From the NCBI GenBank assembly GCA_004114245.1, contig QZWS01000162.1, forward strand, positions 1-20,414: a DNA stretch of 20,414 nucleotides. The letters are read 5' to 3'. Below the pieces are notes generated by a model, which was given only the letters and a program-made list of their open reading frames with translations, was not told the origin of the DNA and ran no database searches. Of the stretch, positions 1-20,414 are shown piece by piece. How positions within the stretch are numbered: the first letter of the stretch is position 1; the number at the start of each line of letters is the position of its first letter. This DNA comes from Zoopage sp. CT-All. Lineage: Eukaryota > Zoopagomycota > Zoopagomycetes > Zoopagales > Zoopagaceae. The position numbers were made by a program, and so were the translations under genes.

Positions 1-2
1 AT

Positions 3-430
3 ATACCAGCATCTCCTTTTGCTTCGCCACAAGGCCCAGCCAATGACAATACTTCTAAGTACCTGCCATTCAACTTCAAGCAAAATGTTTCTGCCTGTTA
101 CTCAGAGCCGCAACCCACTCTTGACAATCTTATCGAAGGTCTGGTAGTGGAGGGCATCCCCCTTAAACATGTCAACTACGATTTGGTGAATGACACCCAT
201 CCCTACTGGATGATTACATTCACGCCTTGATGAATATCTTGAAGCATGCCATTGCCAGTGTTCTATGGGAGGAGGCCAAAGGAGTTGATAGAGTATGCCC
301 ATAGTAGTGCAGGATGTTTTCTTCATATTTGCTATTCTATTTCTGTTTTTCTACTTTATATAATGGTTGGTATTGCCATGATTGAGGCATTGCTATTGTC
401 ATGCATGGGTGTAATAACTGGGTGTACTGT
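3..430 (+). pseudogene. Truncated, decayed copy of a repeated gene/element family (left arm of inverted repeat)
   Basis: An open frame runs from the window edge to a TGA at 228-230. It encodes a segment containing LPFNFKQN and PTLDNLIEGLVVEG. A shifted frame then continues to about 300 with EEAKGVDRV. The same sequence lies in opposite orientation at about 1430-2030, where the corresponding segments read LPFNFSKN, PTLSSLIAGVVEE and EEAKGVDRV, so this is one arm of a diverged inverted repeat. The frame break at 200-230 makes the copy non-functional. Nucleotide similarity continues past the coding part to about 430, for example around the shared string gattgaggcattgct. The family is not recognised; a mobile element or an amplified secreted-protein gene are both possible. 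Confidence 0.55.
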
Positions 431-572
431 TCTCCCTCTACATCAATTAGCCATCACTCCTAGTAGATTAAATAAATCATTATCAAAATGCACACAATAG
501 CAGAACAAGTTGCACAAACATAGATGTGCTGTCATAGGACTGGTATTAGCCAAGGTACCCTTAACACTGGGG

Positions 573-673
573 CAGATAGATAGATGAGTAAAAGATACTG
601 CCATCTATCCTGCTAGATTATACTTCTTCTAGCAACTAGAAGATACTGGAATATGCCCAAGAGTATCCAAAAA
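573..673 (+). repeat. Diverged direct repeat, copy 1
   Basis: About 100 bp matched by a second copy at 1236-1341 in the same orientation. Shared blocks include gagtaaaaga, ctgctag, agcaactagaag and aagagtat. Nothing coding is visible. The two copies lie between the arms of the larger inverted repeat, so the interior is itself made of repeats. Confidence 0.5.
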
Positions 674-761
674 TGGTATCAAAGTATGGTGGGTAGGTAT
701 CAATAAAGTGTTTGCATAGCCACTTCCCCAATTCAAATTCCCAAAACTTTCCCCATTTTTT

Positions 762-820
762 GGAATTAGGAAAGTGAACTGCTAAAAGTGTTTGCACAAC
801 AATTCACTTTCTTCAATTCC
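762..820. repeat. Imperfect palindrome (hairpin), MITE-like
   Basis: GGAATTAGGAAAGTGAA at 762-778 is almost the reverse complement of 803-820, with one indel and one mismatch in about 17 bp and a 24-nt loop. The string aaagtgtttgca occurs near 706 and again near 785, next to similar c/t-rich sequence, so the hairpin sits in a locally duplicated segment. It could be the remnant of a small non-autonomous DNA transposon. No target-site duplication was recognised. Confidence 0.4.
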
Positions 821-892
821 CCAATTCCACAGTGGATGCACCTCCCTATGCCTAGTTGTCTATACTTATTAATATACTCTTTTTATGTTTCA

Positions 893-1041
893 ATAAGTGT
901 TATGATAGGATACTTAGGAGGGTCAATGATAATGATGGATGCATTTGTGTTGACCTAACAGAGAGAAAAGAGACTAGCAAAGTCAGGCCTGGCTTAGCTA
1001 GTTATACTCCAGAGGCCACATGGCCCAATTGTTATATAGGC
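893..1041 (+). repeat. Dispersed repeat, copy A (possibly once coding)
   Basis: This block is matched in reverse orientation by 18855-18970 at the other end of the window. In frame it reads CYDRILRRV...GCICVD...VRPGLA; a frame of the other copy reads YDRMLKKV...GYICVD...VRPGSA. The protein-level similarity suggests a decayed element ORF. The family is not recognised. There is no start codon context or continuous frame, so it is entered as a repeat and not as a gene. Confidence 0.5.
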
Positions 1042-1104
1042 AGGCATAATACTAGTTGCTTATAAGCTATAATATATTAATTTTTTGGCATTGGGGCATG
1101 TCAT

Positions 1105-1185
1105 AGTTTCTTTTCTCCTTATTTTATCAACACCTGTATTGACCTTAATGCACTTAATTACCCCAGTACCTCCTCTCTACCTCTC
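1105..1185 (+). repeat. Dispersed repeat, copy A' (second copy near 20085)
   Basis: The stretch shares an ordered series of blocks with 20085-20165 in the same orientation: tttcttttc, tcaac-cc, aatgcac-taatt, and a following ctc/tac-rich tract. The right copy has a CG (20101) where this copy has CA. Confidence 0.4.
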
Positions 1186-1235
1186 CTTCCTATTTTGTTT
1201 ATTGAGTTATCCCTCCTATTGAGCCAGTTATTACA

Positions 1236-1341
1236 GGGCAGATCAAATAGTTGAGTAAAAGACACAACTACCTAGTCTGCTAGGCTATTCCAATGCCTCT
1301 TCCAGCAACTAGAAGTTACTGCATTGTATTCAAGAGTATGG
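1236..1341 (+). repeat. Diverged direct repeat, copy 2
   Basis: Second copy of the repeat at 573-673, same orientation. It shares ggcagat, tgagtaaaaga, ctgctag and cagcaactagaag in the same order and similar spacing. Confidence 0.5.
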
Positions 1342-1559
1342 TGAGCAGCCCTCATGACCCTCTTTCCCTGGTCAACATAAGAAAATTTGATATACAATGT
1401 ATGCCAACTCAGAGTCTACATTATTCTATTATACACACCTAGCAATGCCTCAATCATGGCAATACTAGCCATCAAGTAAAGTAGAGAAATAAAAATAGAA
1501 TAGCAAATGCAAAGAAAATTCTCTGCACTACTATAAGCATTATTTAGAAACAGCACTGT

Positions 1560-1637
1560 AGTATGGGTGGCAGTGAGGTTCTGTGGAATACAATGTAATG
1601 AAAAAGTGACTGCTACTTTCTACTGCCACACCACAAA
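1560..1637 (-). mobile_element. Small inverted-repeat insertion (MITE-like), copy 2
   Basis: Compared with the left copy of the host repeat near 290-305, this arm carries about 100 extra bases here. Read on the minus strand they match the extra block at 1774-1861: tgtggtgtggcagtagaaa, then gtagcagtc, a T-rich middle, ttccaca and a final ctgc-ca-cc segment. The ends are imperfect inverted repeats of the type TGTGGTGT..GCAG. It has no coding capacity. Confidence 0.5.
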
Positions 1638-1773
1638 TGCCATACTCTATCAACTCCTTTGGCCTCCTCCAGTAAAATATTGGCAATATCATGCTTCCAG
1701 ATATTCATCAAGTTCTGAATTGAATTATCCAGTAGGAAATGGATTCTTCCATTGTGAAGATGTCTGCCCTTAA

Positions 1774-1861
1774 GTAGTGTGGTGTGGCAGTAGAAAAGTA
1801 GCAGTCTCTTTTCTGATACATTAAGTTCCACAAGACTTACTCTGCACTACACCACAAGTAG
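1774..1861 (+). mobile_element. Small inverted-repeat insertion (MITE-like), copy 1
   Basis: This block is absent from the left arm, which runs without interruption near 180-200. It begins gtagtgtggtgtggcag and ends ctgcactacaccacaagtag, which are imperfect inverted repeats of each other. A sister copy in opposite orientation lies at 1560-1637. A fragment near 11826-11857 (ttctgcggaatgcaatgt) may be a third, partial relative. Confidence 0.5.
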
Positions 1862-1876
1862 TCAACTTGCATGTTT

Positions 1877-2950
1877 TCAGGGAAGACATTCCTCTACCAC
1901 ACCTGCAATGAGGCTGCTGAGAGTGGGAGGCAGCTGTGAGATATATGCAGACTCATTTTTGCTAAAGTTAAATGGTAAATGCTCTGAAGTATTGTCATAG
2001 GTAGGGCTTTCTGGTGAAACATGAGGAGAGTGTGGCATATGTAGATGAGTCATCTTTGTCCTGAATTTTATAATGTCATTATCCATTGGGTTTGGAGGTA
2101 ATTTTTTGAGTATGTGATGAGCATTTAAGCAGAAAAGGGATGATAATGCACTTGAGCCCATTGGAAAGATTGGGGGCAATCTTCTCCAGGATTTCAGAAG
2201 CCAGTAGATTATATTAGGATCCTATATTGAATCAAACTTTATCTCTTCTGGAAAGCAAGATGCTTGAGACTTGTATAACATAGATCTCAAAGTACCATAT
2301 TTGAACTTATCAAACTCTGGTAACTGCTGTGCATAGACTAGGTTGTAGATGAATTCTTTTGGGAAAATGTAGAATGCACAGATATCAACAAGGGCAGGCT
2401 GCTCTGCTGCCAGTTTTAATAAGTTGGCTGCACATTCAGAGGGTTGGCTAAAGGTGGAATAATAGAGATGTTTCACAGATGATAGCTTGGGTTTTAGCAA
2501 AGCAATTTTGGTCTTGATTTTCTTCATTTCCTTGACCACATTCTTAAAAGGGGTTGACTCCTGTGCTATATAGCACAAAGCAGGAGTGGCTGTAGTGACT
2601 GCTGTCTTTTCTCCACTTACCTGACAAAGTACACTATCTTGTCCCAAGGACTTCTCTCTCCCCTTATGTTGCCAGCATAACTCCAAGGCATTGCAAAGCC
2701 AACTGTTTATTGTAGAGCCATCTGGCCTGAATGACTGAGCTGCTATATGCAATTGCTCATTTGTTATTCCGAGCTTATTATTGGGTCCTAATAAACTCTT
2801 AATATGGTGATGCACATCTTCAGGGAGCTGTGTCATTTGGCCAGGGACATAAGCAAGTATGGATGGCTGATTGGCAGCTTGAAAGCCCATGACCAATAAC
2901 AACAAAGATGCCAAAAACATGGCAGTGAGCAGGAATATGGGGGATTTCAT
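1877..2950 (-). pseudogene. Decayed gene for a protein with an N-terminal signal peptide (repeat family)
   Basis: An ATG at 2950 opens a 242-codon frame ending in TAG at 2222-2224. The same frame continues with no shift for another 114 codons to a TGA at 1877, so a single nonsense codon splits one frame of about 356 codons. Recognisable remnants (EEAKGVDRV) continue to about 1613, interrupted by stops and by two small insertions. The first 25 residues (MKSPIFLLTAMFLASLLLLV, then MGFQA) form a typical cleavable signal peptide or signal anchor. Cysteines are scattered through the rest and no domain is recognised. The C-terminal part is homologous to the fragment at 3-300, so it is a repeated family. 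Base composition is AT-rich and CpG-free apart from one CG at 2770, unlike the functional genes. It could be an element ORF or a dead secreted-protein gene; stop readthrough is less likely. Confidence 0.55.
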
Positions 2951-3290
2951 TTTAGAGATGGATGGTGCAAGGTTATTAGGCTAGGAGGTGAGCAGGGAGA
3001 GAGGTCTTATCTGAATCAAGAGGGGGAGAGAAAAACTATGACTGCAGTGCCTGGCCCGGCTTCAACAATGGGGCAGTGTGATTGTCTTCACTGCAAGTGA
3101 ACACTAGGATAGATTGGAAGCCTGCTGATCTAATTAATCAAATGTGCATAACTGCCTGGAAGATTCAAAAGTGCCTGCAGCCTCTTTTACATGAATACAG
3201 GGATGCTGTTGTTGCAATAAATAATCCTAGACTGAAATATCACTCCCAAGTCCATTTATACCTATTGCACTGGCTACAAACATAGAGTAG
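2951..3290. other. Non-coding stretch with no assignable feature
   Basis: AT-rich sequence with only one CpG (3057). It lies upstream of the decayed minus-strand frame and before the LTR-like block. A 67-codon plus-strand frame at 3082-3285 lacks an ATG and resembles no known family; it may be a repeat remnant. Confidence 0.4.
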
Positions 3291-3401
3291 TGTTGTGCTA
3301 GCTTAGTCAGACATAACAGTTTGGAGCTCACAGTATAAAAGGAGAGCGAGCACAACTTGCCTCCTGACAAGTAGAGAAATTCGATTACCCTGAACACAAC
3401 A
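3291..3401 (+). mobile_element. Possible solo LTR (111 bp) with TATA box, upstream of CDC7
   Basis: The block begins TGTTGTG and ends CACAACA, a perfect 7-bp terminal inverted repeat of the TG...CA type found on LTRs. It contains a TATA box (tataaaag, 3333-3340). No flanking target-site duplication and no primer-binding site were seen, and the repeat would be short for an LTR. The alternative is simply the CDC7 core promoter with a chance inverted repeat. Either way the TATA box lies about 160 bp upstream of the first candidate ATG of CDC7. Confidence 0.3.
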
Positions 3402-3498
3402 CCCCACCAACATCAACAGTCACAAATAGTTCTGTCAGTTCCAAAATCGCCATTTCCGTCCAGACACAACCCAGGCCAGTACAGCTTTGGCGTTGGTT

Positions 3499-5555
3499 AT
3501 GGTCAACGATGTCGTAAGCGTCGAATCGCTAGACAATTCCGCAAGACTGGTTCTGTTGGTCGTAGGTTTTGCCTTTGGCTGCCGAGGCAGAGAGCAAAGC
3601 GGGCTATTCGCTGCGCTCCCGTTCGCAGCCAGACACATGCACTACGCGTATGCCGCTCGTCGTACATACATAATTGCCATAGGCTGATACTATCGCGTTA
3701 GAGAAGGCTGATATCAAGGATAGCTCCGCTCGGACGGCACATGCCACGAATCCATCAACAGTTGTATCCGCCCGATGCACCAGTGCAGCGTGTGCCACAG
3801 CGTTTGTTGTCGACGACGATCCGCTGTCGTCGCTTTCGAATTTCGTGACTCTCGATAGTGACTCGGATAGACGAGCAATAGGTCCGCTGGTCGCGTCAAA
3901 CGGGAATGAGTCAGCAGATGTATCCTTACAAGTGGCCTCGAATACTGCGGCTACGGAGTCGGATGACGCGGTCATGCTACTTGATGCTGGTGTTGACACT
4001 AAGCAAGTGAATGTGACGCCTATTTGCGGATCAGTTGGCCAGTGCGGTTCGGGTAACATTCTGCCCATCCTTAGCTCATTGGCAATGCCACATCCCTTAG
4101 AGCCAGCCGCAAGTTTGAGCGCCACAAAATCATCAGCAAAAGATACGGATGAACCATATGTGGATATAGAACCGTGTGATCAGAGCTGCTCATCGGATGA
4201 AAGTGACGTGAATGCTGACCCGGCCACATTCCAAGGCGCCAAGGCAGAAATCGTTCGCATCATAAAACTCTTCAAGGGTCTCGACGACCAGTACCAGCTT
4301 GTGAAAAAGATTGGCGAAGGTGCGTTGGAGCGTTATTCACAATCGCGCCATTGGGCCTGATTAGGAACATTCAGCTCAGTGTACAAGGCCGTTGACATCC
4401 ACCGGAGCACGTTTGACGACGCCCATCGTCGTGGCAAAACTCGCCATGTTGCTGTCAAGCGGATATACGTTAGCAGCAGTCCCGATCGCATTATGAACGA
4501 GATTGCAATCCTCCTCGACCTGAGGTAGTGCATTGCCAGAATGACGATGGTCTCGTTTCTAATGCTGTCCCTGGCAGAGACCGGCCTGGCATTGTACCCA
4601 TTATCTCGGCATTTCGCGACGCGGATCAGGTCGCGCTCATCTTTCCCTACTTTCGCCATCGAGACTTTCGCGACTACTATTCCAACATGACGAATGCTCA
4701 ACTACGCGCCTACATGCGCGGATTATTTGTCTCACTCAAGAGCATTCACGAGTGCGGCATTATGCATCGAGATATTAAGCCTTCCAACTTTTTGTACAAC
4801 GAAAAGGCCAGACAGGGAATGCTAGTCGATTTTGGTCTAGCCCAGGTACTCTCATCTAGTCGTCCGTGATCTATTGACAGTGCAGCGTCAAACACCCCCT
4901 CCAGCACGACGTGGCGAACCAAACGAAGTGCAGCAGCAAATTAAAATCGACGAGCAAGGCATGCTGCGAGTTCGCATCGATGAGACCAAGTGAGACGGCT
5001 TTCGACATTGTGGAGGCTAAACAAAACGTAGACCACCGTATCGAGCCAATAGGGCAGGAACCCGCGGCTTTCGTGCTCCCGAAGTGCTCCTCAAAGTGTC
5101 CAGCCAGACTACTGGTAACTTTGGAATAGTCATCAATTGTGTTGCAATTCTTGTAGCCATTGATATATGGTCTGCTGGCGTAATAATGCTGTGCGTACTT
5201 GCAAGACGATTCCCCTTCTTTCAGTCGAGCATGGACCAGGAAGCCTTGGCAGAAATCGCATGTCTCTTCGGCGCCAAAGCCATGGCCAATCTTGCATCAC
5301 GCTATGGTGGGTCATCTGATATATATGTATATATTTGCTAAGCTCGCATGACCAGATCGCATATTTGAGACCAACATCCCCAGCGTGCAAGACTCAAGCT
5401 TATCGATCGACCGTCTCTGCCGCAAGCTGCGCGGAGAGTCACCGGATTTTTCCCAGGATGCTTTCAATCTACTTGAGAAATGCCTCGTTCTGCATCCGGT
5501 GGAACGTATTACTGCCAGCGAGGCACTGTCCCATCCTTATATATGCAATGAATAG
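3499..5555 (+). CDS. CDC7: Cdc7-type (DDK) serine/threonine kinase
   Basis: This is the catalytic subunit of the Dbf4-dependent kinase, which phosphorylates Mcm2-7 to fire replication origins in the nucleus. Exons: 3683-4319, 4365-4524, 4578-4845, 4886-4989, 5053-5114, 5157-5306, 5356-5555; introns are 40-63 nt. Joining them gives GEGTFSSVYKAVD, VAVKRIYV (ATP lysine), HRDIKPSNFLY, DFGLAQ and KAGTRGFRAPEV, then a C-lobe ending in SHPYICNE. HRDIKPSNFLY with DFGLAQ is characteristic of Cdc7. The segment between DFG and the P+1 loop is only about 35 residues, short for a family known for long kinase inserts. The acidic, Ser-rich N-terminus lacks a clear start. One option is ATG 3499 spliced from 3513 or 3561 to 3683; a conservative start is the in-frame ATG at 3974 (429 aa). 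No Dbf4 partner is encoded here. Identity is secure; the first exon is not. Confidence 0.85.
3644..3649. promoter_or_regulatory. ACGCGT (MCB-like) box upstream of CDC7 coding exons
   Basis: A perfect ACGCGT hexamer, the site bound by MBF at G1/S genes in ascomycete yeasts. It lies 34 bp before the first secure CDC7 exon and within the putative first intron or leader. The hexamer also occurs in coding DNA of this window, so position is the only support. Confidence 0.3.
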
Positions 5556-5606
5556 CACACTGTAACCCTCCATAGAATATACTCTGTTGCACATTTAAGC
5601 GAAAAG

Positions 5607-5612
5607 ACGCGT
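5607..5612. promoter_or_regulatory. ACGCGT (MCB-like) box in the DNMT1 promoter
   Basis: A perfect ACGCGT hexamer in the 105-bp gap between the CDC7 stop and the DNMT1 start, 49 bp upstream of the ATG and followed by a T-run. MBF-type G1/S control would suit a maintenance methyltransferase. This is inference from position and consensus only. Confidence 0.4.
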
Positions 5613-5660
5613 TTCTTTTTAAGCTACCTTCTCGGCCCCGTCATCATCCTTCCGACGGTC

Positions 5661-8600
5661 ATGGCCCCCGGTGAGACTAAAGCTCAAACCAGTGAATTCG
5701 CAACCGGATCAAATGCCGCTGCGCCCGCATCTGCATTGAATGGCGTCGAAGGGACCGTCGGCGGCGATGATGCCGCCGCGCCGCCGTTCACATCCAAACA
5801 GGCAAGAACAAGAACCTCGATGCAGGCATTTTCATCATCTGTAGAAAGGAAAGCAGGTTGTGGGTGACGACGAGGATACTACTGCACCAATACGCGTGAG
5901 TCGCGTTGTGCAGGCTTCGCTGCCGTCGGGTATGGCTTGCCTCACTCGAATGATTGCCTCCAAGCATGATGACTAGGCTCGACCAAGCGCAAGCGTAATC
6001 CCGTCCTAAAGTACGAAACTGGAGAAGACGAGGAAGTTGAGACTGAAAACCTGGAAGTCATCGATGAGGATCTCGATAATGGTGTTCGCAGTGACGATAT
6101 GTTGCCGTGCCGGTATCTCGATAATTTTGTTATATTCGATGCGAATGCTGGCAACCGTTTGGTTGGATTCGAGCACATCTTGGTCACAGGCTCAGATGTC
6201 CATGTCGCCGGTGAAGTGAAGCCAGTCCCGGCGGTTGAAGAGTATGAGAATAATGGCGACGAGGATGACGATGACAGTGCGGGAATGCCAGCGCAGCGGA
6301 TTCGTACGAGCGCGGTTATGTTCTGGGATCTCGAATACGAAGCAAATCATTTGTGGGTGCATTCATGATCGCGGGCTGCTTGCTTACTCCTGCTCTTAGC
6401 GATCCCGTGGTTTTTGTGCGGACGCAATATGCTTATTACACCCTACGCAATCCAGCACCAGAGTATGCCGAAACACATCAAAAGTGCTTCGCCAAGTATC
6501 AGCTTGTGCGTGCCCTCATGCGATGCTGTGCAAATCCCGATGCCGTGCTGGACGACTTTTACAACGCGGCGAGTGCTCAAGTAGAGGGCTCTCAACATGC
6601 TTTGGCGCTGTGTCAAACATTCGAAAAGTCCGATGTGCTTGACAATATCCTGTTCATATTTGACGAATTCGAGTTTCACGCAACCCATACAGATGATTAC
6701 TCCATTCTGTCTACAGGAGTGTACCAGCAAATCGTGCAATTGGCCGATATGGAGCTCAATAAGAAGACCAAAAAGAAGCGAGGCCGCATGGCAACAGCTG
6801 GAGCGAAAGCCGCCATCAAAATCAAGGAGAACTCGGCGACCGCCACACCCATTGTCCGTGCATTGGCTCAAGGACTATTCCAGGGACGACAACTCGCTAG
6901 CCAGGCCTACACCGACGAGAACACGGTCCGCAGCGAATATCTACCCGAGTTTGACAATGTCGACGTGCCACTTCCAACCGTCAAGTCGTGGTCAAATAGA
7001 ACGTGGGGCCCGGTCGTGCAGGATCCTACTAATAAGGACATGACGTACTACACCCATTTGCAGCTTGACCTCGATACCAAGCTAGCCAAGAATAGCATCT
7101 GCGTGGTCCAGACCACCGTAGGAGTGCGACCTGCTATTATTCGCTATCTATATGAAGACAAGCGAGGAAAGAGTGTCGCCCATGTCCAGCATCTTTTGCC
7201 TGCCGCCGAAAGTGTTCTTCAGGAGACTGGCGCTGCAAGAGAGCTGCTCCTGGTCAACCAGTGCTCAGACATTGCTGTAGACGATATTGTCGCGCCACTT
7301 GCCGTTTATTGGGCCCCGTCGGGGTCCTTAGAAGCTCTGCAGGCCATAGACGGCCACGACTATTTTATTCGGTTAGTCTTGGCATACTTATAGATCATAG
7401 CTTACTCCCCTTGCAGCTATTGGCACGATCCTTCAACTGCAGCGTTCGAGTCCCTCGAGGAGCACATGCGTGAGCATAGCGGCAAGGATTTGTGCCATCC
7501 ATTGGAGTGGTGTATAGCCTGCGAGGCCTTGCTTCGGGCTCAAGAGGCAACAAAGGCAAGAATCGTTCCCGGAGATAGCGTTTCGACGTTTGTGTATGGC
7601 AATGCCGAGTACCACGTCAACGATTTCGTCTATGTCGCGTCCGCTGAGCGCAAGGAGAAGCCCTATGAGGTCTGTCAAATCGTCAAACTATACCATGATA
7701 CAACGGTCTCGACCTCGCGGACCACGATGTCGCGCTTTAAGGCTCGTCGCTTGAAGCGATATAATGAAGTTGCTCCAAGCGCCGAGTCATTCGATCCAAA
7801 TGGACCCGAGATTGCATTTCCGGCCCCAACCGATTGTCGTCATCTAGTCGTGACCAATTCGTACGCCGATGTTCATGTATCAGACATGGACGGAAAGTGC
7901 ACTGTACTGCACCGCAAGGACATTCCCGATCTGGACTTGTATAAAAACCAGCTGGATACGTTTTACTTCTCCTCCGTCTACGATCGCAAGTCCGAGCCCA
8001 GGCTCATGGCTGTAAGTACACACGCAGTCGACATATGCACCAAGTGCAAGGATGATCGCGAGAGAAACGAACTGGAGCGCGAGCAGTTCATGAAGGAAAC
8101 CTCGCCACTTGTCGCCCTTGATATTTTCTCAGGCTGTGGCGGACTTACCTCCGGACTTGCCGAGACAGGAATAGTTAAAACGAGACACGCCATTGAGTTT
8201 GATTCCAGTGCCGCATATACCTTTAGGTACAAATCGTCTTCTCTGGGCATTTACTGAAGCATTGCCAATAGGAAGAATTTTACGTATGCGACAGCTCACA
8301 ATGAGTGTGCCAATGTGCTTCTCGACCGTGCTATTCGCAAGCACTCCAAGGGAGAAACACTGGACAATGTTGTTGACCGTGCTCGTGAGCCTTTGGTCGA
8401 TTTGCCTGCCCCTGGTGCCGTTGATTTTATCTACTGTGGGCCGCCATGGTAAGAAGGTTGTTTACACCAGTGCTCCCATTTCCCATTTCCTACTAGCCAA
8501 GGATTCTCTGGAATCAATCGATTCAAGAAGGCGGATGATATCAAGAATTCCCTTATTGCGACCTCGTTGAGCTACGTCGAGTTTTATAAGCCCAAGTGCG

Positions 8601-9825
8601 TTTTTTCGATTCTAATCCATGCTAACCTTGTTCAGATACTTTTTACTGGAAAACGTTCGTGGAATGCTCGCTTATCGCCTCGGTGGTGAGCAGGTCGGCC
8701 CGAATCGCATCATTGGGGGTATCGAGCTTGGTGTTGTCAAGTTCATTGTTCGGTCGTTGCTCACGCTTGGGTAAGTTGCTTTTTCCTCGTATGCTTCTGA
8801 TCTTTGTAGATATCAAGTGAGATTCTCACTCCAACAGGCTGGACACCATGGACTTCCTCAAAGCCGCCGGCGTCTCTTCTTTTGGGGAGTTCGTCGTGAT
8901 CTCACCCTTCCTATTTTTCCGCAGCCTTCTACGTGCTTTCCAAAGCAAGGGTCCATCGCAATCAATTTGCCGAATGGGACGGCCTATTCCACGCTGCGTC
9001 GGCTAAATGGACAAGCGCCGTTGAGCGCCATCACAGTTGGCGACGCTATTTCAGATCTTCCTGGATTCGAGTACATCGACCCCCATGCCACGTATCCCAA
9101 GCAGCCGAATGAGCGACCACGCCCGGCATCCTTTCGTCAGTATGGTGTATTTAAAGATTCCAAGTGGATAGGAGAGATGCAAATGAAATACTCGCATGCT
9201 CCTAGGAGCGAGTACCAGCGGCTTCGGCGCATTGGCACTGAGACGTTGTCCAATCATGTCGCCCGTTCGTTTAACGACTTGAATGTCGAGCGAATCATCC
9301 ACGTCGGCATGGAGCCCAAGGCAGATCATTCCAGTACGTTAAGCGCCGAGTGAACATCGAACTAATGAACGGGTAGGTCTTCCCCAGGTTCTAAAACCTT
9401 GGTGTCTATATCACGAAAACTCGGCGGCTGCACGCCACAATGGATGGAAGGGCTTGTTTGGTCGGCTGGATTTCGATGGCCACTTCCAAACGGCCCTCAC
9501 TGATATGCAGCCGATGGGCAAGCAAGGGGTGCGTCAGTTTGCGCAGCGCTCTGTAGCTGATTATGGCTAGTCTGTCATTCATCCCAACCAACGCCGAGTG
9601 CTCACAGTCCGAGAATGTGCTCGTGTTCAAGGTTTCCCAGATCGGTTTGTTTTCCACAGTCGTCGCGACGATATCAAGGATATGCACCGCCAGGTGGGCA
9701 ACGCTGTTCCGCCCCCGCTTGCGCATGCTCTTGGACGCGAGCTGGTGAATGCAGTGTTCAAGGATTACTGCAAAGCACAGAGATCCAAAGAGGTTGTAAT
9801 GGGCCAGGATAAGGACACGGTGTGA
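5661..9825 (+). CDS. DNMT1: DNMT1-type cytosine-5 DNA methyltransferase (RFTS-BAH-BAH-MTase)
   Basis: Exons: 5661-5801, 5845-5929, 5977-6352, 6400-7371, 7417-8226, 8272-8448, 8497-8595, 8636-8770, 8810-9333, 9377-9528, 9571-9825, giving 1241 aa. It transfers methyl from S-adenosylmethionine to C5 of cytosine; DNMT1 enzymes restore methylation at hemimethylated CpG after replication. Domains: disordered acidic N-terminus; replication-foci targeting domain about 118-255 ([13 protein letters not shown]); BAH1 about 390-545; BAH2 about 580-720; catalytic domain from 754. Motifs: [10 protein letters not shown] (759), IV CGPPCQGFSG with catalytic Cys854, VI ENVRG (892), VIII QSRRR (949-953), [13 protein letters not shown] (1169), [10 protein letters not shown] (about 1200). 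No CXXC zinc finger is visible. Intron 1 (5802-5844) is GC-AG. Intron 6 splits the catalytic Cys codon. All catalytic motifs are intact, so it should be active. Masc2/DIM-2-like enzymes are the alternative; the RFTS plus two BAH domains favour DNMT1. Confidence 0.93.
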
Positions 9826-9838
9826 TCATCAGCCGTAC

Positions 9839-9844
9839 AATAAA
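9839..9844 (+). terminator. AATAAA polyadenylation signal for DNMT1
   Basis: AATAAA begins 14 bp after the DNMT1 stop codon. Cleavage 10-30 nt downstream would place the DNMT1 3' end inside the last exon of the convergent BUR1 gene, so the two transcripts probably overlap in antisense. Confidence 0.5.
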
Positions 9845-9847
9845 TGT

Positions 9848-11556
9848 TTATCTCCGATGCTGGCCATTAGCCGCTGCTTTCTGCTCTCTAAACTTGCTCT
9901 TGTCGATTTCATAACTTGGCTCAAAGCGGGCCAGACTAAAATCGGATGAGCACTCGTTGAATCGAATAATATCCAACCTTTGAGGAGTTAGGATCGACTT
10001 TTCGCGCACGAAATAGTCATGCTCCAGCGACTGTTGCGCGGTAATTCGCTTGGGAGGGAACAGCGCAAGCATTTGGCTTAGTAGATCCACGGGCCAGTCG
10101 GCATTATGTACAATGTTTGACTTGATGAACTTGAGGAAATATTCCTTGATCATATTCTTTTTGTTGCCGCCAAGCTCCGAGTCGTTTAGGCCTGCATCTC
10201 GTCGGCCTTTACATTCCTCGAGTTCCCGCCAGCCAGGCCATGACACATCGTTCACAGCGCCGCAGAGCTCCCATATGAGATGCTTCTGGTGCTCGTCGTC
10301 GGCGCCCGGAAACACGGGCTTCTTCTTTATTAGCTCGCCAAAAACGCACCCGCACGACCATACATCGACTGCGGGTGTGTACTGCCGTTCGCCAAGTAGA
10401 AGTTCAGGTGCACGATACCATCGTGTGACAACGGTCGGAGTATACCTTCGATTTTGGATATGTGGCGTGTAAGGCCGAGCCAAACCAAAATCGCCGATCT
10501 TTACTACGCCGATGGGCGAGAGCAGGAGGTTGGCCATCTTGATATCTCGATGAATGATGTTATTCTGCAATGGTCAGCCCGGGGAGGGACGGCTATGGGC
10601 GTACCCGGTGAAGATACGCAATTCCTTGCATAAGTTGCCACATAATCGTCTTGATGTCGTACTCGGTGAATTCCACGCTGGGATTTTCCAGCAGGCCGGC
10701 GAGATCGGCTTTCATCTTGGGAAAGATCATATAGTAAAGGTCCTTCTCGTCGGCGTTGCTCCTGTCAGCTAGAATGTATGTCAGCATTTCGCAGCGCACA
10801 CGAATGATGCCAACCTTTGACGACGAGCATGCTTGAAAGCGGTATGATATTCCGATGGCGCAGGGCCTTCAAAATCTTGATCTCGCGGATGGTAGTGAGA
10901 GGCAAGCCGTCTTCCTCTTTGTGCATCACGATACGCTTCAGCGCCACGGGCCTTCCTGTGGGCTTGTGAATGCCTGATACGACGACGCCGAATGTTCCAA
11001 CACCAAGTCGATTGTCCTCGTTAAAAGCGATATCGGAAAGCGGCGTGGTTCCGACGAGTTCTATGCCGCCGATGCTTGAAGCAGGAAGGGAGGCTTGGTT
11101 CGGTGTGCGCGACAGCATGCGCTGTATCACCAACGCAAATTGGTCCGAAGGCGGCTGGGCAATCGCATGTTGCTTTGCTGGCTGCTGTTCGGCGAGTTGA
11201 CTCGAGCCCGGGCGCTGCGGGACCAGCAGCCCAGACCCAGGTCGGGGAATCACGGCACGATCAGCATAGTGGTAGCTTGTATTTCCAGGCTCTCGGGTTC
11301 GTTTGCGCGACAATTCACCAGTCCCATTTGGGTGAGATGACGGGGGCGGGATCGATGCTGAGGACGGGATCGCTGTTGGGACGCGTGGTGGCGGGATCAA
11401 CGTTGATGATGGTGGGGCGACCATTGCGAATCCTGGCCGAGCGCTGGCCGTCGGGGCATCATAGCTGACTATTTCGCCCTCCTCTGGCTCATCGTCGTAC
11501 TGCAAGCGTGACGGAGAGCCGTCGGGATATTCTGGTTGATGTGGGATGCTGTTCAT
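9848..11556 (-). CDS. BUR1: Bur1/Cdk9-type cyclin-dependent kinase
   Basis: Three exons on the minus strand: 11556-10815, 10768-10605, 10564-9848, with introns of 46 and 40 nt, giving 540 aa. It is the likely kinase of a P-TEFb-type complex that phosphorylates Spt5 and the RNA polymerase II C-terminal domain in elongation. About 170 N-terminal residues are Pro/Ser-rich and disordered. The kinase domain shows GVGTFGVV (185-192), ATP lysine in VALKRI (207), PLTTIRE (219-225, the cyclin-binding PITALRE/PITAIRE equivalent), HRDIKMANLLL (catalytic Asp309), DFGLAR (327-332) and YTPTVVTRWYRAPELLLG with activation-loop Thr344. The PLTTIRE helix and T-loop place it with Bur1/Cdk9 and not with Cdk1, Cdk7 or Cdk8; Cdk12-like kinases are the next alternative. 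The C-terminal tail is short. The start at 11556 is the first ATG of a long open frame. It is convergent with DNMT1, with 22 bp between stop codons. Confidence 0.88.
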
Positions 11557-12023
11557 GGCTGAATGTTGTTTGAAGAGTGGTCAAGCGACGTTTTTGTTTG
11601 AGCAGTTGCTGAGCAGTTGCTGAGTGGGGGCTGAACAGGGATCTATTAATATTGTGTGTAGCAGTAGATTGAGATGAGATGCCAGTCATAGTATGATTGT
11701 CGGCAGCACGCCAGGGTGAACTTGCCCAGTCAGCATTGTAGCCCAGTGGATGAAGTATTGCCGACGCAATGCAATTCAATGAGATGGCAGTAATTGCTGG
11801 GCCTCAAATATATTGCAGGAATAAGTTCTGCGGAATGCAATGTGTATCAGTGAGATCTATAATGAATATTCTAGAAATGCTATATACTCTTCATGCTAAC
11901 TATTGTCACATAAGGACAGCACTGCCTTGCAACTATTGCATCAATCAAACTGAAGCAGCGATAGCATTGCCAACATGAGCAAACAAGCAAATACGGTAAT
12001 TCGTAAGGCAGCCTTCGAAACCC
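11557..12023. promoter_or_regulatory. Divergent promoter region between BUR1 and the lipid-anchor gene
   Basis: 467 bp between two divergent starts. The BUR1-proximal part has a small tandem duplication (gagcagttgct twice near 11600-11625). The middle (11760-11960) is AT-rich and has a short match (11826-11857) to the small insertion family at 1560 and 1774. No convincing gene is visible. Confidence 0.4.
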
Positions 12024-13379
12024 ATGGGCAACGCACAAAGCACCTGCTACGGATGCTGCGCCCCCGTCATTTCTCTCTACAAGCCAGCCAGCGATACGCG
12101 CTGCGCAGCTCGACGGCGATGCGGCGATGCGAGTGACGAGGATGACGTGGAGGAACCCCTGCTTGTCATCCGGAGCGGCCCCGGCGGTGGCTACCTGGAT
12201 GTTGACGCGCTGGAGGAGGACACGCCGCTGAGTCCGACGCACGACATGGAATTTCAAACGATACAACCTAATTCGGGAGCAGAGATGGATGCGGATGGGC
12301 CGGGGCCGGGGCCCAAGATGGATGCTGAAGGGTTTGACAGACCCGTTCGATCGAGATCGGGCACGCTGCTGTCGCTGGTATCGGCCGCCGACCGTGTTCT
12401 ATCCACGCTATTGGGATCCAATCAAGCCAGTGGGGCTGAACGCAGTGGAGGCGCAGAGGGGGAAATGCTTCTACGAACGGCCTCGGCGCAGGACACCACC
12501 GGCGAAATAAGCTTCCTATTCTCCGAGAGCAACGCCGAAACGGACCAGGCAGAGCTATTGGACGTAAATCACATGCACTCTCAACTCCGCCGACGAATGG
12601 ACCCGGGACATGAGGGTGCAGCTATGCAGGGCTCCGCTGTCGTCAAACGCTCTCATGACTCGGCAAAGGACGCGGTGGACGTCTCCAAGCCTCCACCGTC
12701 TGCTGAGGAATGCATTGGGACTGTCCCAGAGGCATTCGAGGACGCGTCAGATGGTGATACGCGGAGAGAAGATAAGAAGAGCCCTAAGCTTCTCCAGCTT
12801 CCGCCGATTATTCCGCCACCCATGCTGGACATCCCCGAGATAGCGTCCCTGCTTGTTCCGCCAGCAACGTTGGCGCCAGAATCATCCCCGCCGCCATCTC
12901 AGCAAATCTCGCCCATGTCGTCGCCTCATTCTCCTACAGTGTCGTCATCGCGTGGCTTCGACCACGGCCGCTTGAGTGTCTCCTATCTGCCCGAGATATC
13001 CACTGATCCGCCAGGACTCGGGATTGATTTCAAGGACATGCAGCCGCCGGCAACGCCCAGGCTCTCGCATGCGATTACGCCGATGGAAAGAATACCCACG
13101 CGTGCGATGCAGGATGCGGATTTCGGCGTTCTTGGCCCCGTAGTTGGTGAGCCCAGCAGAGTGTCTGCACGTTTGGACCCAGCAAGCACTGCGGATGCGG
13201 TCCAAGGACAGCAAGCACCCGCCGTCGCAGGATATTTTGACCGGCCGGTGGCGGCAGAGCGCAATGAAAGCAACGTGTGGGCTGAGCAAAGCCGGCGGCT
13301 GGTTGCTCGACGCAGCGGGTTTGCAGAGGGGTATTTGGACACCGAGGAGAAGGGCGGTGGCAGCGAGGGCAGCGATTAG
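12024..13379 (+). CDS. Unrecognised disordered protein with predicted N-myristoyl/palmitoyl anchor
   Basis: A single-exon frame of 451 aa with CpG-rich codon use like its neighbours. The start MGNAQSTCYGCC fits N-myristoylation (Gly2, Ser6) followed by palmitoylation at Cys8, Cys11 and Cys12. An acidic stretch ending in a dileucine (DEDDVEEPLL, 38-47) follows, a layout seen on vacuolar/lysosomal or plasma-membrane anchored scaffolds such as LAMTOR1/Ego1 and Vac8. No armadillo, kinase or other fold is visible: the remainder is Ser/Pro/Asp-rich and disordered, with a PP-rich stretch at about 258-300. Related short motifs occur near both ends: GGYLDVD (55), AEGFDRPV (101), AGYFDRPV (402) and GYLDTEE (436). 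The last two thirds show no membrane segment. A membrane-tethered adaptor or signalling scaffold is a reasonable inference; no function can be named. The gene is divergent from BUR1. Confidence 0.75.
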   Translation: MGNAQSTCYGCCAPVISLYKPASDTRCAARRRCGDASDEDDVEEPLLVIRSGPGGGYLDVDALEEDTPLSPTHDMEFQTIQPNSGAEMDADGPGPGPKMDAEGFDRPVRSRSGTLLSLVSAADRVLSTLLGSNQASGAERSGGAEGEMLLRTASAQDTTGEISFLFSESNAETDQAELLDVNHMHSQLRRRMDPGHEGAAMQGSAVVKRSHDSAKDAVDVSKPPPSAEECIGTVPEAFEDASDGDTRREDKKSPKLLQLPPIIPPPMLDIPEIASLLVPPATLAPESSPPPSQQISPMSSPHSPTVSSSRGFDHGRLSVSYLPEISTDPPGLGIDFKDMQPPATPRLSHAITPMERIPTRAMQDADFGVLGPVVGEPSRVSARLDPASTADAVQGQQAPAVAGYFDRPVAAERNESNVWAEQSRRLVARRSGFAEGYLDTEEKGGGSEGSD

Positions 13380-13717
13380 TTCCGATTCTTTGTTGGCTGC
13401 TTCAGTGTCATGCAACTGTATAATAAACCATCTATCAATATGCTCAAAGCATCTGCAATCCTATTGGCCAGCATTTAAGAACTTGTTATATAATTGCTAT
13501 CTGTCCCATTATAAAGATGGCAGATGAATGTATAAGCAAGTCGTCTATCTTGGATCTCACTGCTGCTGTTGTACTTTTGAATGGCATAGTACATGGCCAT
13601 TGGTTATAATTTAATAGTATCAGCCAAGGCAAGTAACTTGGGTGTATTCTAAAATGTTTAATTATGCACCAATTTATGCTCTGGGCCGGGTCACGTGAGC
13701 TTGCTCGAAGCCACAAC
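13380..13717. other. Intergenic region: 3' end of the lipid-anchor gene and CENP-P promoter
   Basis: An AATAAA at about 13421-13426 is a likely polyadenylation signal for the upstream gene. The rest is AT-rich and nearly CpG-free (one CG near 13542) until about 13684, where composition returns to that of the genes. Confidence 0.4.
13692..13697. promoter_or_regulatory. CACGTG E-box (GTCACGTG, Cbf1/CDEI-type)
   Basis: GTCACGTG fits the RTCACRTG consensus of Cbf1-type bHLH factors. It lies 20 bp upstream of the preferred CENP-P start. A second GTCACGTG is present on the minus strand at 19274-19281, upstream of tRNA-Asn. Confidence 0.35.
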
Positions 13718-15178
13718 ATGCATCGCAGCGATGCCCGGCGCGTGCCCGCCGCTCTACGCCACAAGCACGCCAACTACAGGCCCAGTAATTTTGCCGCAAC
13801 ACATACTGGTCTCGTTTCTCCACCCGCCGATGCCGGTACGCAGCATCCGCAGGATGTGTGGCGCGAGTTTGACAAACTCCACCGACGGAGCACAGCGAGC
13901 AGACCAGCCTCTAATGGAGTCCAAGACAACCACCCGAGTGTGAACCATACCGAACGGGGCGAGGCTGGTGCTGTCACTGGCGGGGAGGATCCACGGTTGG
14001 CACAGCATTTGAAGGACAACGCACTGGAGCGGCGGCGACGACGACTCGCCGATGCTGTGGTTCGTGCCAGAGATGGTCTCGAAAATGCCCGATATAGGCT
14101 GGATCAGCTGAGTCTCGAGAAACAGAGCCGGGGAAGCATTGCAATGGTGGTCGATCAAGGAAGCGTTGATGCTGCCAAGTGCGTTCACCCTGTTAAGCTT
14201 TCGCCAATCATGCTCTATGCCATTAGAAGAAAACTGTTGGAGATGAGCAACGTCAGGTTTAAGGAGTATGCCAAGCGAGTATCCGGAAGAATCATAGCAG
14301 AGGAGGCTGGTGCCGTTGCCATGACAGCTAGGCGGAAACCTCCCGGAATCGAAGATGTTGACAAGCTTTTGGTATCCGAGCAAGTGCTATAGTGTAATTT
14401 GATTTACAATATCGATAGATAACGACACTGGAGCGATTCTCAGAGATCGTGTTTGACGAAGTTAAGCAAGTGGCTATTCCTACCGCCATGCCATCAGGAA
14501 CGGGACTGGCATGGAAGCACTGCTTGGTTGGACGTGTGCGAACAGCGCCAGATACCATGCATTTTGCGATACGGTTTCTTACACGCGATGATCGATGGAG
14601 GATTGAACATCTCTCTGTCTGGGTTCCGCATGCCGTCCGCAATGAACTAGGCCCGATTATCAAAAGGTACTTGATCGCAAACCTTATACACTAGCCGAGC
14701 CAACAATATTGCATAGGGCTGAAAAGGATAACGATCTCCCCGGATTCTTTCGTCGCTATCGAGATTATACGAAGCTCGCATTACATCGTGAAGATGCTTT
14801 CGGAAAGCTTCGAGCGGCCTTTAAAGCACAACTGCAGGATGACACATCGGGCGAAACGATGCTTGCTACTACTCTTGTTTTCGGTTCTCTGCGCCAACGA
14901 CTCGTATTATCTTGGAGGATACAGCCTGCTGTGGATAAGAACGGGGCCATGTTGATACACATGCCTTTCGTCCCTTCTGTGCGACTAGAACCGCAAATAG
15001 CTGTTGCTGGTATGATTATCAGTGCCATTCATTTTACTCCTATCCATACACCTTAGGAACTGATGAAGTACAGGAAATGACGCGAATACTACCCCAGGAG
15101 TTCCAGAACTTGGCTGCACTCCATGGTGTCGTATTTGCAGTCTCAAGCATTGTCGAGTGCTTCTTTGGTCCCGGCTGA
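13718..15178 (+). CDS. CENP-P/Ctf19-like inner kinetochore subunit
   Basis: Exons 13718-14371, 14419-14666, 14717-15009, 15057-15178 give 438 aa (introns 47, 50, 47 nt). CENP-P (yeast Ctf19) pairs with CENP-O through tandem RWD domains within the COMA/CCAN complex at centromeres. The N-terminus is basic and disordered. A coiled coil follows at about 102-140 (ERRRRRLADAVVRARDGLEN). Two RWD-like parts come after it: the first contains RWRIEHLSVWVPHAVRNEL; the second has FFRRYRDYTKLALHREDAFG, then LVLSWRIQPAVDKNG (Trp at about 366), and ends with a hydrophobic helix. The order 'FF-x-LR-x-Y, R-x-F-x-L, LVL-x-WRI, closing helix' matches my knowledge of vertebrate CENP-P. The family is very divergent, so this rests on pattern, not overall identity. 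An upstream in-frame ATG at 13664 would add 18 residues, but that part lies in AT-rich DNA before the E-box. Confidence 0.6.
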
Positions 15179-15349
15179 GGCGCTTAGCGTTCGGCAGGAG
15201 GCTGCTTGCCAGCCCGTGTGTATTAGAATTGTAACATAGTCTCTTGCTTCTGCAGATATCTCGTAATTGAAACAAGACACGTTCAAAACACAAACGATAC
15301 TGCAACCCGCCTATACCCTGCAATCTGCATATGCTAATCAGCATGGATC

Positions 15350-16880: not shown

Positions 16881-17069
16881 TGAATGGGAGGCGCTGCGTC
16901 ATGACTGTTGTTCTTCCCAATCACAAACGCAACTTTGCTAGCAGCACTGTGATTCTCCTGCTCCTCTGCAATAATGTGACAGTCACTCTTCCAACAGCAC
17001 CTTGTGAATGATTGAGCATGGAACAAAGCTATTTGAACTAATACAACCACTACGTCTATTGGGCGGTGC
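16881..17069. promoter_or_regulatory. Promoter region of ATG18 / 3' end of the bZIP gene
   Basis: 189 bp between two tandem minus-strand genes. It must hold the ATG18 promoter and the bZIP transcript end. No clear TATA box or polyadenylation hexamer stands out. Confidence 0.35.
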
Positions 17070-18413: not shown

Positions 18414-19067
18414 GGTGCTGGTGCTGGCGGGTAAGAGGTGCGGGGCAGAGGTGGCGCCTGGCGAGACGGATGGGAGAGCGGTGGGCCTTTGTCGGTTTTG
18501 TCAGCCGGACCTGACCCTTCCGAGGCAATCGCAATAGGGTGTTTGCGCAGCCGGGTGTATGCGAATGCGAATGCGCCGGTGCCTTGTCTCTGCTATTTCA
18601 ATATACGCATTGCTTATTAATTGCCCATTAAGGGAGCAAAAGTAGTATGTCTCAGGAAACTACCAGGGTTGTGGCTGAGTGAGAGAAATAGTATCATTAG
18701 GAAGTATGTTACTCAATACTTTTGTTATAGCAGTAGTCTCATAAGCAGCTACAAGATGCTTCAGCCAATATAGGGAATCATATTAATTGATTTCTTTTCT
18801 ATGCAAATACTTTATTTATTCTCAATATTGTAAAAATCAATTGCTTTTTGTAACAATCAAGCCATGTGGCCTCTAGGGAATAACCCAGCAGAGCCAGGCC
18901 TAACTTGGTAGTCAACACAAATATATCCTTCTTTGACAATGACCTTTTTGAGCATCCTGTCATAATAGGCATGGAGCAAAACTTCCATAAATATATATTT
19001 AAATGATATAAAATCAAAGCACTTTACATTCTAGGCCAATAAATCAATCAACTGCAAGCTTCAGATA
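18414..19067. other. bZIP promoter, then CpG-free repeat DNA
   Basis: 18414-18600 is GC-rich upstream DNA of the bZIP gene with a small gcgaat tandem (18560-18575). From 18608 to 19067 no CpG occurs and the sequence is AT-rich. Within it, 18855-18970 is the reverse-oriented partner of the repeat at 893-1041. No intact gene is visible. Confidence 0.5.
18855..18970 (-). repeat. Dispersed repeat, copy B (partner of 893-1041)
   Basis: Read on the minus strand it shares tatgacaggat, atttgtgttgac, aggcctggct and gaggccacatgg with the left-flank copy, in the same order. It may be a relic of an element ORF. Confidence 0.5.
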
Positions 19068-19094
19068 CGCATAAAATCGGCCAAAACATCGATG

Positions 19095-19100
19095 AAAAAA
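19095..19100 (-). terminator. RNA polymerase III terminator of tRNA-Asn
   Basis: Six consecutive T on the minus strand immediately after the tRNA 3' end. Confidence 0.85.
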
Positions 19101-19196
19101 CGCTCCCGGGTGGGCTTGAACCACCAACCTCCTGATATTTGCTCGTGTTGCCACGTTCTAACAGTCAGACGCGCTAGCCAATTGCGCCACGGAAGC
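19101..19196 (-). tRNA. tRNA-Asn (GUU) with a 22-nt intron
   Basis: The minus strand folds as a complete cloverleaf: acceptor GCTTCCG/CGGGAGC (one T-G pair), D stem GCGC/GCGC, anticodon stem TCTGA/TCAGG, variable loop AGGTT, T stem GGTGG/CCACC with loop TTCAAGC, discriminator G. The anticodon is GTT. A 22-nt intron (19137-19158) sits one base 3' of the anticodon, the canonical place for nuclear tRNA introns. It contains AAC triplets that could pair with the anticodon. A run of six T follows the discriminator directly and serves as the RNA polymerase III terminator. Mature length is 74 nt. Confidence 0.95.
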
Positions 19197-19756
19197 TTAT
19201 TTTGCCACCACAAAATATGTATATAACATACAATCTCTTTTTTTGCAAAAATCAAGCCAAAATCTCCCGCGGGCACGTGACCAACTCGAGAATGCATCAA
19301 AATTGATTTTATTGCAGTGGAAGACAAGCCAGCTTGTTAGACAAATCTGCCAACCTACTATTATAATTAATTCCTAGTAGAAGCAGGTTTATATTTCTTG
19401 TTTAAAGATGATAAACTATTCCTACCTTTCTTACATTCTAATTTGCTCTACCTACCTGACCTAGGCAGGAATAATATTTGAGGTGTTACAAATTATAAAA
19501 CTAAAATAGTTATTTTTCTCTATTAGGCTAACAAAATATAAATTTCCTTATTATTAATACTCTTTGATTCTCTTGCTATAGCAGTTTGAGAGAGAATCAA
19601 GAAGCAGTAGATAAAGATAAATACATAATTGTAGATGCACATAGTTGAGCATAAAAAATGCTTATTGTATAATTGAGAAAGCACCTGTGCAACACTGTAG
19701 TGTTTATGTAAATACTCTATTATTATTATGTCCAAGTTCAGAGGGACAATAGAAAG

Positions 19757-20095
19757 CTAATTTAAACAAATATGTACTGCATAGCAGTTATGCATATTAG
19801 ATTCAATAATGCCAAATACACTAAATTGTCCTACTGCAACGACTGTCGCTGGGTCAGTCCAGTGGTGTTGCCAGAAGTGGTTGGGTTGGACAAACCCTAT
19901 AGAATAGAGGGCAGCCATGCTTGTGGTGCCCACATGGGCAGTAGTCTCTTTTTGTAAGAACCAAACCACTAATACATGGTGTTTCATTGACTTTGGGCTG
20001 CCTTCACCCCAAGTCCTGGTGCTTAGGTACACCTTTGAATCATTCCAATGCATGAGAATGACAGTGCTGTGACAGTCTCTTTTCTTTCCTGTCAT
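19757..20095 (-). pseudogene. Possible transposase fragment
   Basis: A 112-codon frame with the string VILMHWNDSKVYLSTRTWGE. A Trp-x-Asp-x-Lys-Val-x-Leu-Ser-Thr pattern is reminiscent of the region after the catalytic core in piggyBac-type DDE transposases. No second motif of that family follows and there is no clear start. The rest (rich in His, Trp and Val) may be out of frame. This is a weak call, based on one short motif in a repeat-rich flank. Confidence 0.2.
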
Positions 20096-20165
20096 GTCAA
20101 CGCCAGTGTTGGCTAATGCACCTAATTGAACTACATTCCCTTATTACGCTCTTCACCTACATCTA
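20085..20165 (+). repeat. Dispersed repeat, copy B' (partner of 1105-1185)
   Basis: Ordered short matches with the left flank in the same orientation, including aatgcac-taatt. It retains a CG at 20101 where the left copy has CA. Confidence 0.4.
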
Positions 20166-20414
20166 TCTCCTCTACCGCCGAGTCAGTCATCACAAGTGCT
20201 GCCCTCCCCGCCTAGGTTGACCCATCCAGGTTAACACCAATACTGCTTGCAATACATCTAGTTCCCCTCTGTCTCCGCCTGCCTCAGCCCTGCCTTAGCC
20301 TGTCACCCCCCCAGCCCTTGTGTTGTCCACCGCCTCCAACCTCAATCCTGCCTGGGCATCACTGTGGTGAGGTGGGGGTGGTGTGTGGGCAATGCACCCG
20401 CGGTGCACTGTGGG

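Follow-up and report, generated by a model that had tools for sequence, protein, structure and literature searches.

Composition and rarity of the CpG-free stretch

The 20,414-nucleotide stretch of DNA analysed here (hereafter the window) is an entire contig (C410) of the fungus Zoopage sp. CT-All, whose assembly comprises 8.62 Mb in 419 contigs. Its left part contains a stretch without a single CpG dinucleotide, made of short repeats and of a broken copy of a gene, and a gene for a DNA methyltransferase of the DNMT1 type is located 2 to 3 kb away. The composition of the stretch and the comparison of its components with their relatives elsewhere in the genome make it very probable that it was emptied of CpG by gradual deamination of 5-methylcytosine (5mC) at CpG sites, a process that would act on repeats and other non-genic DNA. 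The features of this part of the window are as follows.

225..2769, no strand: CpG-free stretch, 2545 bases, delimited by dinucleotide counts
1..230, + strand: 3' end of a gene-family member, 75 open codons, stop codon at 228-230, truncated by the contig end
187..395, + strand: arm 1 of an inverted duplication, paired with 1440-1751; the arms span the 3' end and the downstream flank of each gene copy
1440..1751, - strand: arm 2 of the inverted duplication, paired with 187-395
696..898, no strand: repeat F1, with four family CpG sites, here all TG or CA
893..1034, no strand: repeat F2
1774..1861, no strand: repeat F3, with terminal inverted repeats, resembling a miniature inverted-repeat transposable element (by eye)
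1874..2980, - strand: broken copy of the gene family, with TGA and TAG within the match and a CpG observed/expected ratio (O/E) of 0.02
2561..2680, no strand: repeat F4, 120 bp, within the broken gene, with ACTCC at each side (by eye)

The first CG dinucleotides of the window stand at positions 25, 109, 134, 179, 223, 2770, 3057, 3347 and 3382. An earlier interpretation made from the letters alone (the sequence-only reading) had reported that 225-2769 lacks CG altogether and that only those at 2770 and 3057 follow ahead of 3347, and the position count shows both statements to be exact. The base composition of 225-2769 predicts 96.6 CG, where none is observed; 2000 mononucleotide shuffles of this sequence had a mean of 96.6 CG, and the lowest count among them was 71. 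The O/E of the dinucleotides in the stretch is 0.00 for CpG, 1.25 for GpC, 1.30 for TpG, 1.32 for CpA and 0.91 for TpA. GpC, therefore, is not depleted along with CpG, and the ratios at the locus and in the sampled genome came out as the sequence-only reading had predicted. It had also described the downstream genes as rich in CpG, which agrees with the O/E of 1.04 in gene DNA (3450-18500). The excess of TpG and CpA in the stretch amounts to 93.2, compared with 96.6 CpG lost, but this balance is only approximate, because the O/E of TpG and CpA is also 1.17 in gene DNA. The GC content is 0.38-0.44 in the CpG-free stretch versus mostly 0.48-0.56 across the genes.

The rarity of such a stretch was assessed in 197,123 bases, comprising the window and 20 fetched stretches of the same genome, ten of which come from contigs picked for repeats and ten from contigs chosen blindly to content (C5, C25, C45, C65 and C85, two parts each). 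No CpG-free run in this sample exceeds the 2545 bases found here, and the runners-up measure 1084, 1009 and 915 bases. In the five content-blind contigs, which are a small fraction of the 8.6 Mb and not a genome-wide survey, the CpG O/E is below 0.1 in none of 166 intervals of 500 bp and below 0.6 in 11 of them.

Components of the stretch

The gene-family 3' end at the contig edge carries five CpG, the final one (223) in the penultimate codon, and the broken copy stands tail to tail with it. The short repeats between and inside the gene copies recur in many contigs (40 of 96 candidates scored), and these matches confirm that the CpG-free stretch coincides with repeat remnants, as the sequence-only reading had supposed. 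The F3 family has a single CpG site in about 80 bases (13 copies compared).

An open reading frame (ORF) of 252 codons at 2222-2980 on the reverse strand was considered as a gene kept free of CpG by selection. It was rejected, since TGA and TAG break the family match, the 120-bp repeat F4 lies inside and the open paralogues carry CpG. When this ORF was searched against a protein collection, 628 candidates shared words with it and none reached an E value of 0.001. With F4 inserted, the frame of the broken gene runs on for about 41 codons before it meets a stop, probably by chance. The possibility that F4 is an intron (introner) was dropped, as its removal at GT-AG ends would not restore the frame of the paralogues (by eye).

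The broken copy and its gene family

The gene family was matched in 19 rows, which fall on 16 loci, and the broken copy was compared with the paralogues in contigs C349 (which has one stop codon), C156 and C309. The CpG of these paralogues are retained in the broken copy at 1 of 24, 1 of 30 and 1 of 39 sites, respectively, and read TG or CA there at 15, 19 and 17 of the same sites. Their GpC are retained at 31 of 64, 27 of 60 and 25 of 61 sites. When paralogues are compared with one another, 6 to 10 CpG are retained of 22 to 39. Along the branch leading to the broken copy, at sites where C349 and C156 are identical, transitions are found at 9 of 20 CpG bases versus 15-19% of bases in other contexts. 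The mutated fractions by context are 13/85 for CpA, 12/63 for CpC and 11/71 for CpT, and CpA is thus not preferred. The divergence of the broken copy is about 0.17, corresponding to 107 changes at 614 sites outside CpG at which C349 and C156 have the same base.

The loss of CpG also depends on the loss of gene function. The CpG O/E is 0.46-0.90 in seven open members of the family (four of them, in C191, C128, C380 and C20, read over the matching part only), 0.49, 0.53 and 0.20 in the members carrying a single stop codon, 0.03 in a member with five stop codons and 0.02 in the broken copy; this count omits the loci C349:18821-19692 and C139:9251-9514 of the 16. Two end fragments have ratios of 0.44 (window 3-230) and 0.67. 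The O/E of CpG across codon boundaries is 0.60 in the three family ORFs covered in full (C309, C156 and C122). The five content-blind contigs have a value of 1.04 in 15 long ORFs, which are unannotated stop-to-stop frames totalling 22,035 bases.

The family (contigs C191, C128, C380 and C20; loci L048, L023 and L049) evolves fast; seven or more of its members are open and several others are broken. Of three members scanned with Pfam, one gave a weak match to the F-box (18.4 bits with a cut-off of 20.5; E 0.0021), and the N-terminus has a segment resembling a signal or membrane segment (by eye).

CpG loss in repeat copies of different age

A further repeat of the window served as a clock for the loss of CpG.

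20065..20195, + strand: 130-bp repeat, 16 copies compared

The copies comprise that of the window and 15 of 24 other match rows; the rest, namely C347:6501-6628, C1:15208-15335 and seven short ones, did not enter the comparison. The four CpG columns of the alignment hold 18 CG, 40 TG or CA and 4 other dinucleotides. The loss of CpG depends on age: retention drops as the divergence of the copies elsewhere grows (Spearman -0.61, p 0.013), and the fit gives, for each cytosine, a loss of CpG at 17 times the rate of other sites. The bootstrap 95% interval is 22.9 to 55.1 for the dinucleotide, or about 11 to 28 for a cytosine. Among the 13 copies with four scored sites, 7 retain one to three CpG, and this part-decayed state favours gradual, site-by-site loss. 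When the fit is applied at a divergence of about 0.17, 0.24 CpG of 97 are predicted to remain, and a CpG-free stretch is therefore expected at the age of the broken copy.

The CpG sites of four other repeats hold 28 CG, 30 TG or CA and 5 other dinucleotides, and their 1702 cells with C or G outside CpG show 85 transitions and 27 transversions. In a 158-bp unit, each of six near-identical copies holds one CpG, compared with 5.8 expected; the five copies fetched for it are among the most alike of 26 other rows, and the sample leans young. A 128-bp unit has no CpG in the single copy read. Of the other rows of the 158-bp repeat (L035 2176-2335 and copies), 24 of 26 are 90-99% identical, which looks like a recent burst of a short element.

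Sites where CpG is preserved

The borders of the CpG-poor DNA were traced at both ends of the window.

3334..3501, + strand: right boundary, where CpG returns at 3347, with a possible ATG at 3499 (by eye)
4474-4869: protein kinase exon, downstream of the possible ATG at 3499
19065..19300, - strand: tRNA gene with CpG-rich flanks, CpG O/E 1.30 within CpG-poor DNA
19301..19713, no strand: CpG-free DNA without a listed repeat match, 413 bases (40 of 122 candidates scored)

On the left, the family fragment 1-230 keeps its CpG up to 223, beside the stop codon. On the right, a motif at 3334 is presumably TATA-like and located upstream of the kinase gene; the best match of the kinase exon is a protein from a metagenome-assembled genome of Piptocephalis tieghemiana (66% over 49% of the query). 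The tRNA gene at 19101-19196 (- strand) was found with Rfam (52.5 bits), without an ARAGORN call, and probably carries an intron (by eye). Around this island there is one CpG in the 465 bases before and none in the 428 bases after. At 19301-19728, no CpG is present and 9.0 are expected. Since no repeat match is listed for 19301-19713 among the candidates scored, single-copy spacer DNA may decay as well.

DNA methyltransferases

The window encodes a methyltransferase with the domains of DNMT1.

5973..9825, + strand: DNMT1 gene, with RFD, BAH and C5-methylase domains in this order and short introns

Once the short introns are removed, the catalytic motifs are present, namely I, IV (PPCQG), VI (ENV), VIII, IX and X in the usual numbering. 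The later exon junctions of the model were set by hand, and the final two are approximate. The best match is a protein of Basidiobolus meristosporus (54%), followed by those of Gigaspora, Rhizophagus, Funneliformis and Phycomyces. The order RFD-BAH-methylase and the intact PCQ and ENV would place the predicted protein in the Masc2 class of DNMT1. Three C5-methyltransferase genes were found in the genome, the others being located in contig C313 and, as a DNMT2, in contig C306. The best relatives of the C313 protein with solved structures are DNMT1 proteins, and a weak DNMT1 match lies upstream of it (E 0.003); a scan with Pfam found no BAH domain in it.

The sequence-only reading had placed the DNMT1 gene at a distance of 2.3 kb, which is right when measured from 3346 to a possible ATG near 5661 (by eye); the gene model starts at 5973. 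It had named this nearness together with the loss of CpG. The adjoining position is probably a coincidence, because the enzyme acts in trans, and proximity to the CpG-free stretch probably means nothing.

Origin of the CpG-free stretch

Several processes could leave DNA without CpG. Plain AT-biased drift would agree with the lower GC content of the stretch and with the movement of the broken copy towards AT outside CpG. AT bias alone, however, cannot yield GpC at an O/E of 1.25 with CpG at zero. Foreign or misassembled DNA was dropped as an explanation, as the repeats of the stretch recur across contigs of the same genome, and it seems hardly conceivable that either of these accounts is correct. 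Another possibility is that the elements were poor in CpG from the start, through avoidance or a CpG-poor ancestor, and that the locus was not methylated. The 158-bp unit, the single site of F3 and the 128-bp unit fit such a history, but the gene copy, F1 and the 130-bp unit derive from CpG-bearing stock and have lost their CpG. As the whole story this appears very improbable, being contradicted by the alignments, and a CpG-poor stock would be a contribution at most.

A process similar to repeat-induced point mutation (RIP) but aimed at CpG, in which duplicated DNA is mutated in bursts during the sexual cycle, has been proposed for some Basidiomycota. The stretch is indeed mainly repeated DNA, and a study of three Basidiomycota describes CpG-only signatures together with a DNMT1 of the RFD class (PMC4352252). 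Moreover, 5 of the 13 fully scored copies of the 130-bp repeat have lost all four CpG, one of them at just 1.7% divergence elsewhere. The loss is nevertheless graded in the other copies of this repeat that keep one to three sites, CpG is also absent from the 413 bases for which no repeat match is listed among the 40 of 122 candidates scored, and the branch of the broken copy shows no preference for CpA. The signature of RIP of the Neurospora type is absent from the stretch, as the O/E of TpA is 0.91 (0.69 in gene DNA) and CpA is mutated no more than CpC or CpT. The composite RIP index equals 0.89 - 1.59 = -0.70 in the stretch and 0.58 - 1.38 = -0.80 in gene DNA. A RIP-like origin is thus considered unlikely, although less so than a CpG-poor stock.

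Gradual deamination of 5mC very probably accounts for most of the loss. The stretch is non-genic, a dead gene copy among short repeats, and its CpG cytosines would have been methylated over a long time; deamination of 5mC to thymine would have turned CpG into TpG or CpA, site by site, until none was left. CpG would persist where it is unmethylated or selected, as in promoters and gene bodies, in the tRNA gene and at the coding end of the adjacent paralogue, and a general drift to AT would add to the decay. The DNMT1 of the window, perhaps with the second DNMT1-like gene, would be the enzyme responsible, and its methylation would be directed at non-genic DNA. The deamination proposed in the sequence-only reading is supported by the retained GpC, the raised TpG and CpA and the paralogue CpG that mostly read TG or CA, with methylation itself deduced from this footprint. 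Two corrections have to be made, namely that the nearness of DNMT1 is probably coincidental and the possibility that a part of the stretch arrived already poor in CpG.

Some observations weigh against this explanation. The two nearest paralogues have just 10 CpG sites in common. In the broken copy, C>T and G>A changes outside CpG (50/274) exceed the reverse changes (18/340), so that CpG decay is not the sole force and the copy drifts towards AT. Two of the one-stop members of the family (0.49 and 0.53) are not below the lowest open ones (0.46 and 0.52); because of this overlap, the trend with loss of function hangs on the extremes. The clock is a single small repeat family whose copies were compared with a majority consensus on the assumption of a star phylogeny, and one of these copies has none of its four CpG left at low divergence. 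The four other repeats give a weaker factor of about 5, uncorrected for saturation. Finally, in certain young repeats none of the copies compared contains more than one CpG; some elements probably came in poor in CpG, and a part of the depletion may predate insertion.

It is possible, though doubtful, that the open members of the gene family themselves lie in a methylated compartment, lose CpG at the freer codon positions and mutate faster than ordinary genes. If so, methylation decay would drive the diversification of genes, and a two-speed genome would arise through deamination of 5mC and not through RIP.

Comparison with known systems

CpG decay by deamination is known in fungi, and what is new here is that the loss is graded by age in a fungus of this lineage and has partly eroded a gene family. 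In the study of Basidiomycota mentioned above, CpG-only mutation of transposons is tied to a DNMT1 of the Masc2 class in Microbotryum, Melampsora and Puccinia (PMC4352252). As far as described there, the two cases are alike in the change of repeat CpG to TpG or CpA, in a DNMT1 with RFD and BAH domains and in the absence of a CpA signature. Unlike those fungi, Zoopage is early-diverging, the loss is total over 2.5 kb, age-graded and extends to a gene family, and a second DNMT1-like gene is present.

According to earlier work, 5mC is restricted to transposons in the early-branching fungi reported previously (PMC12695648) and has been mapped in Rhizophagus at transposons and orphan gene families (PMC8647823). 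Methylation of this pattern would yield the present footprint, and the methylated orphan families resemble the family eroded here. Those reports are methylation maps, whereas the present case consists of the mutational footprint alone. A review of fungal 5mC and N6-methyladenine (6mA) stresses 6mA over 5mC in early-diverging fungi (PMC13297926), and the lineages named there for this emphasis do not include Zoopagomycota. A literature search combining Piptocephalis and DNA methylation found no publication, and absence from print is not claimed. The age-graded loss would be evidence for lasting CpG methylation in an early-diverging fungus.

In Entomophthorales, which also belong to Zoopagomycota, RIP has been reported from a composite dinucleotide index (PMC11105155); the footprint is likewise of the C-to-T kind, and "CpG" as a separate word is absent from the main text. 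The composite index of that study is negative for the present stretch, though it is heavily mutated, which indicates that the index is blind to CpG-only decay. This is a warning that surveys relying on the composite RIP index overlook such decay.

Drawn without methylation data, a map of CpG can be read like a history that separates silenced DNA from DNA that stayed useful or unmethylated. In vertebrates, CpG-rich islands stand in a decayed background, and the rate factor is of the same order as here. In Zoopage, in contrast to vertebrate CpG islands, gene bodies and not promoters alone keep CpG.

Among the search rows for other contigs (C340, C323, C39 and C320), reverse transcriptase domains were found in long open frames of 799-1514 codons, which are therefore possibly intact retroelements.

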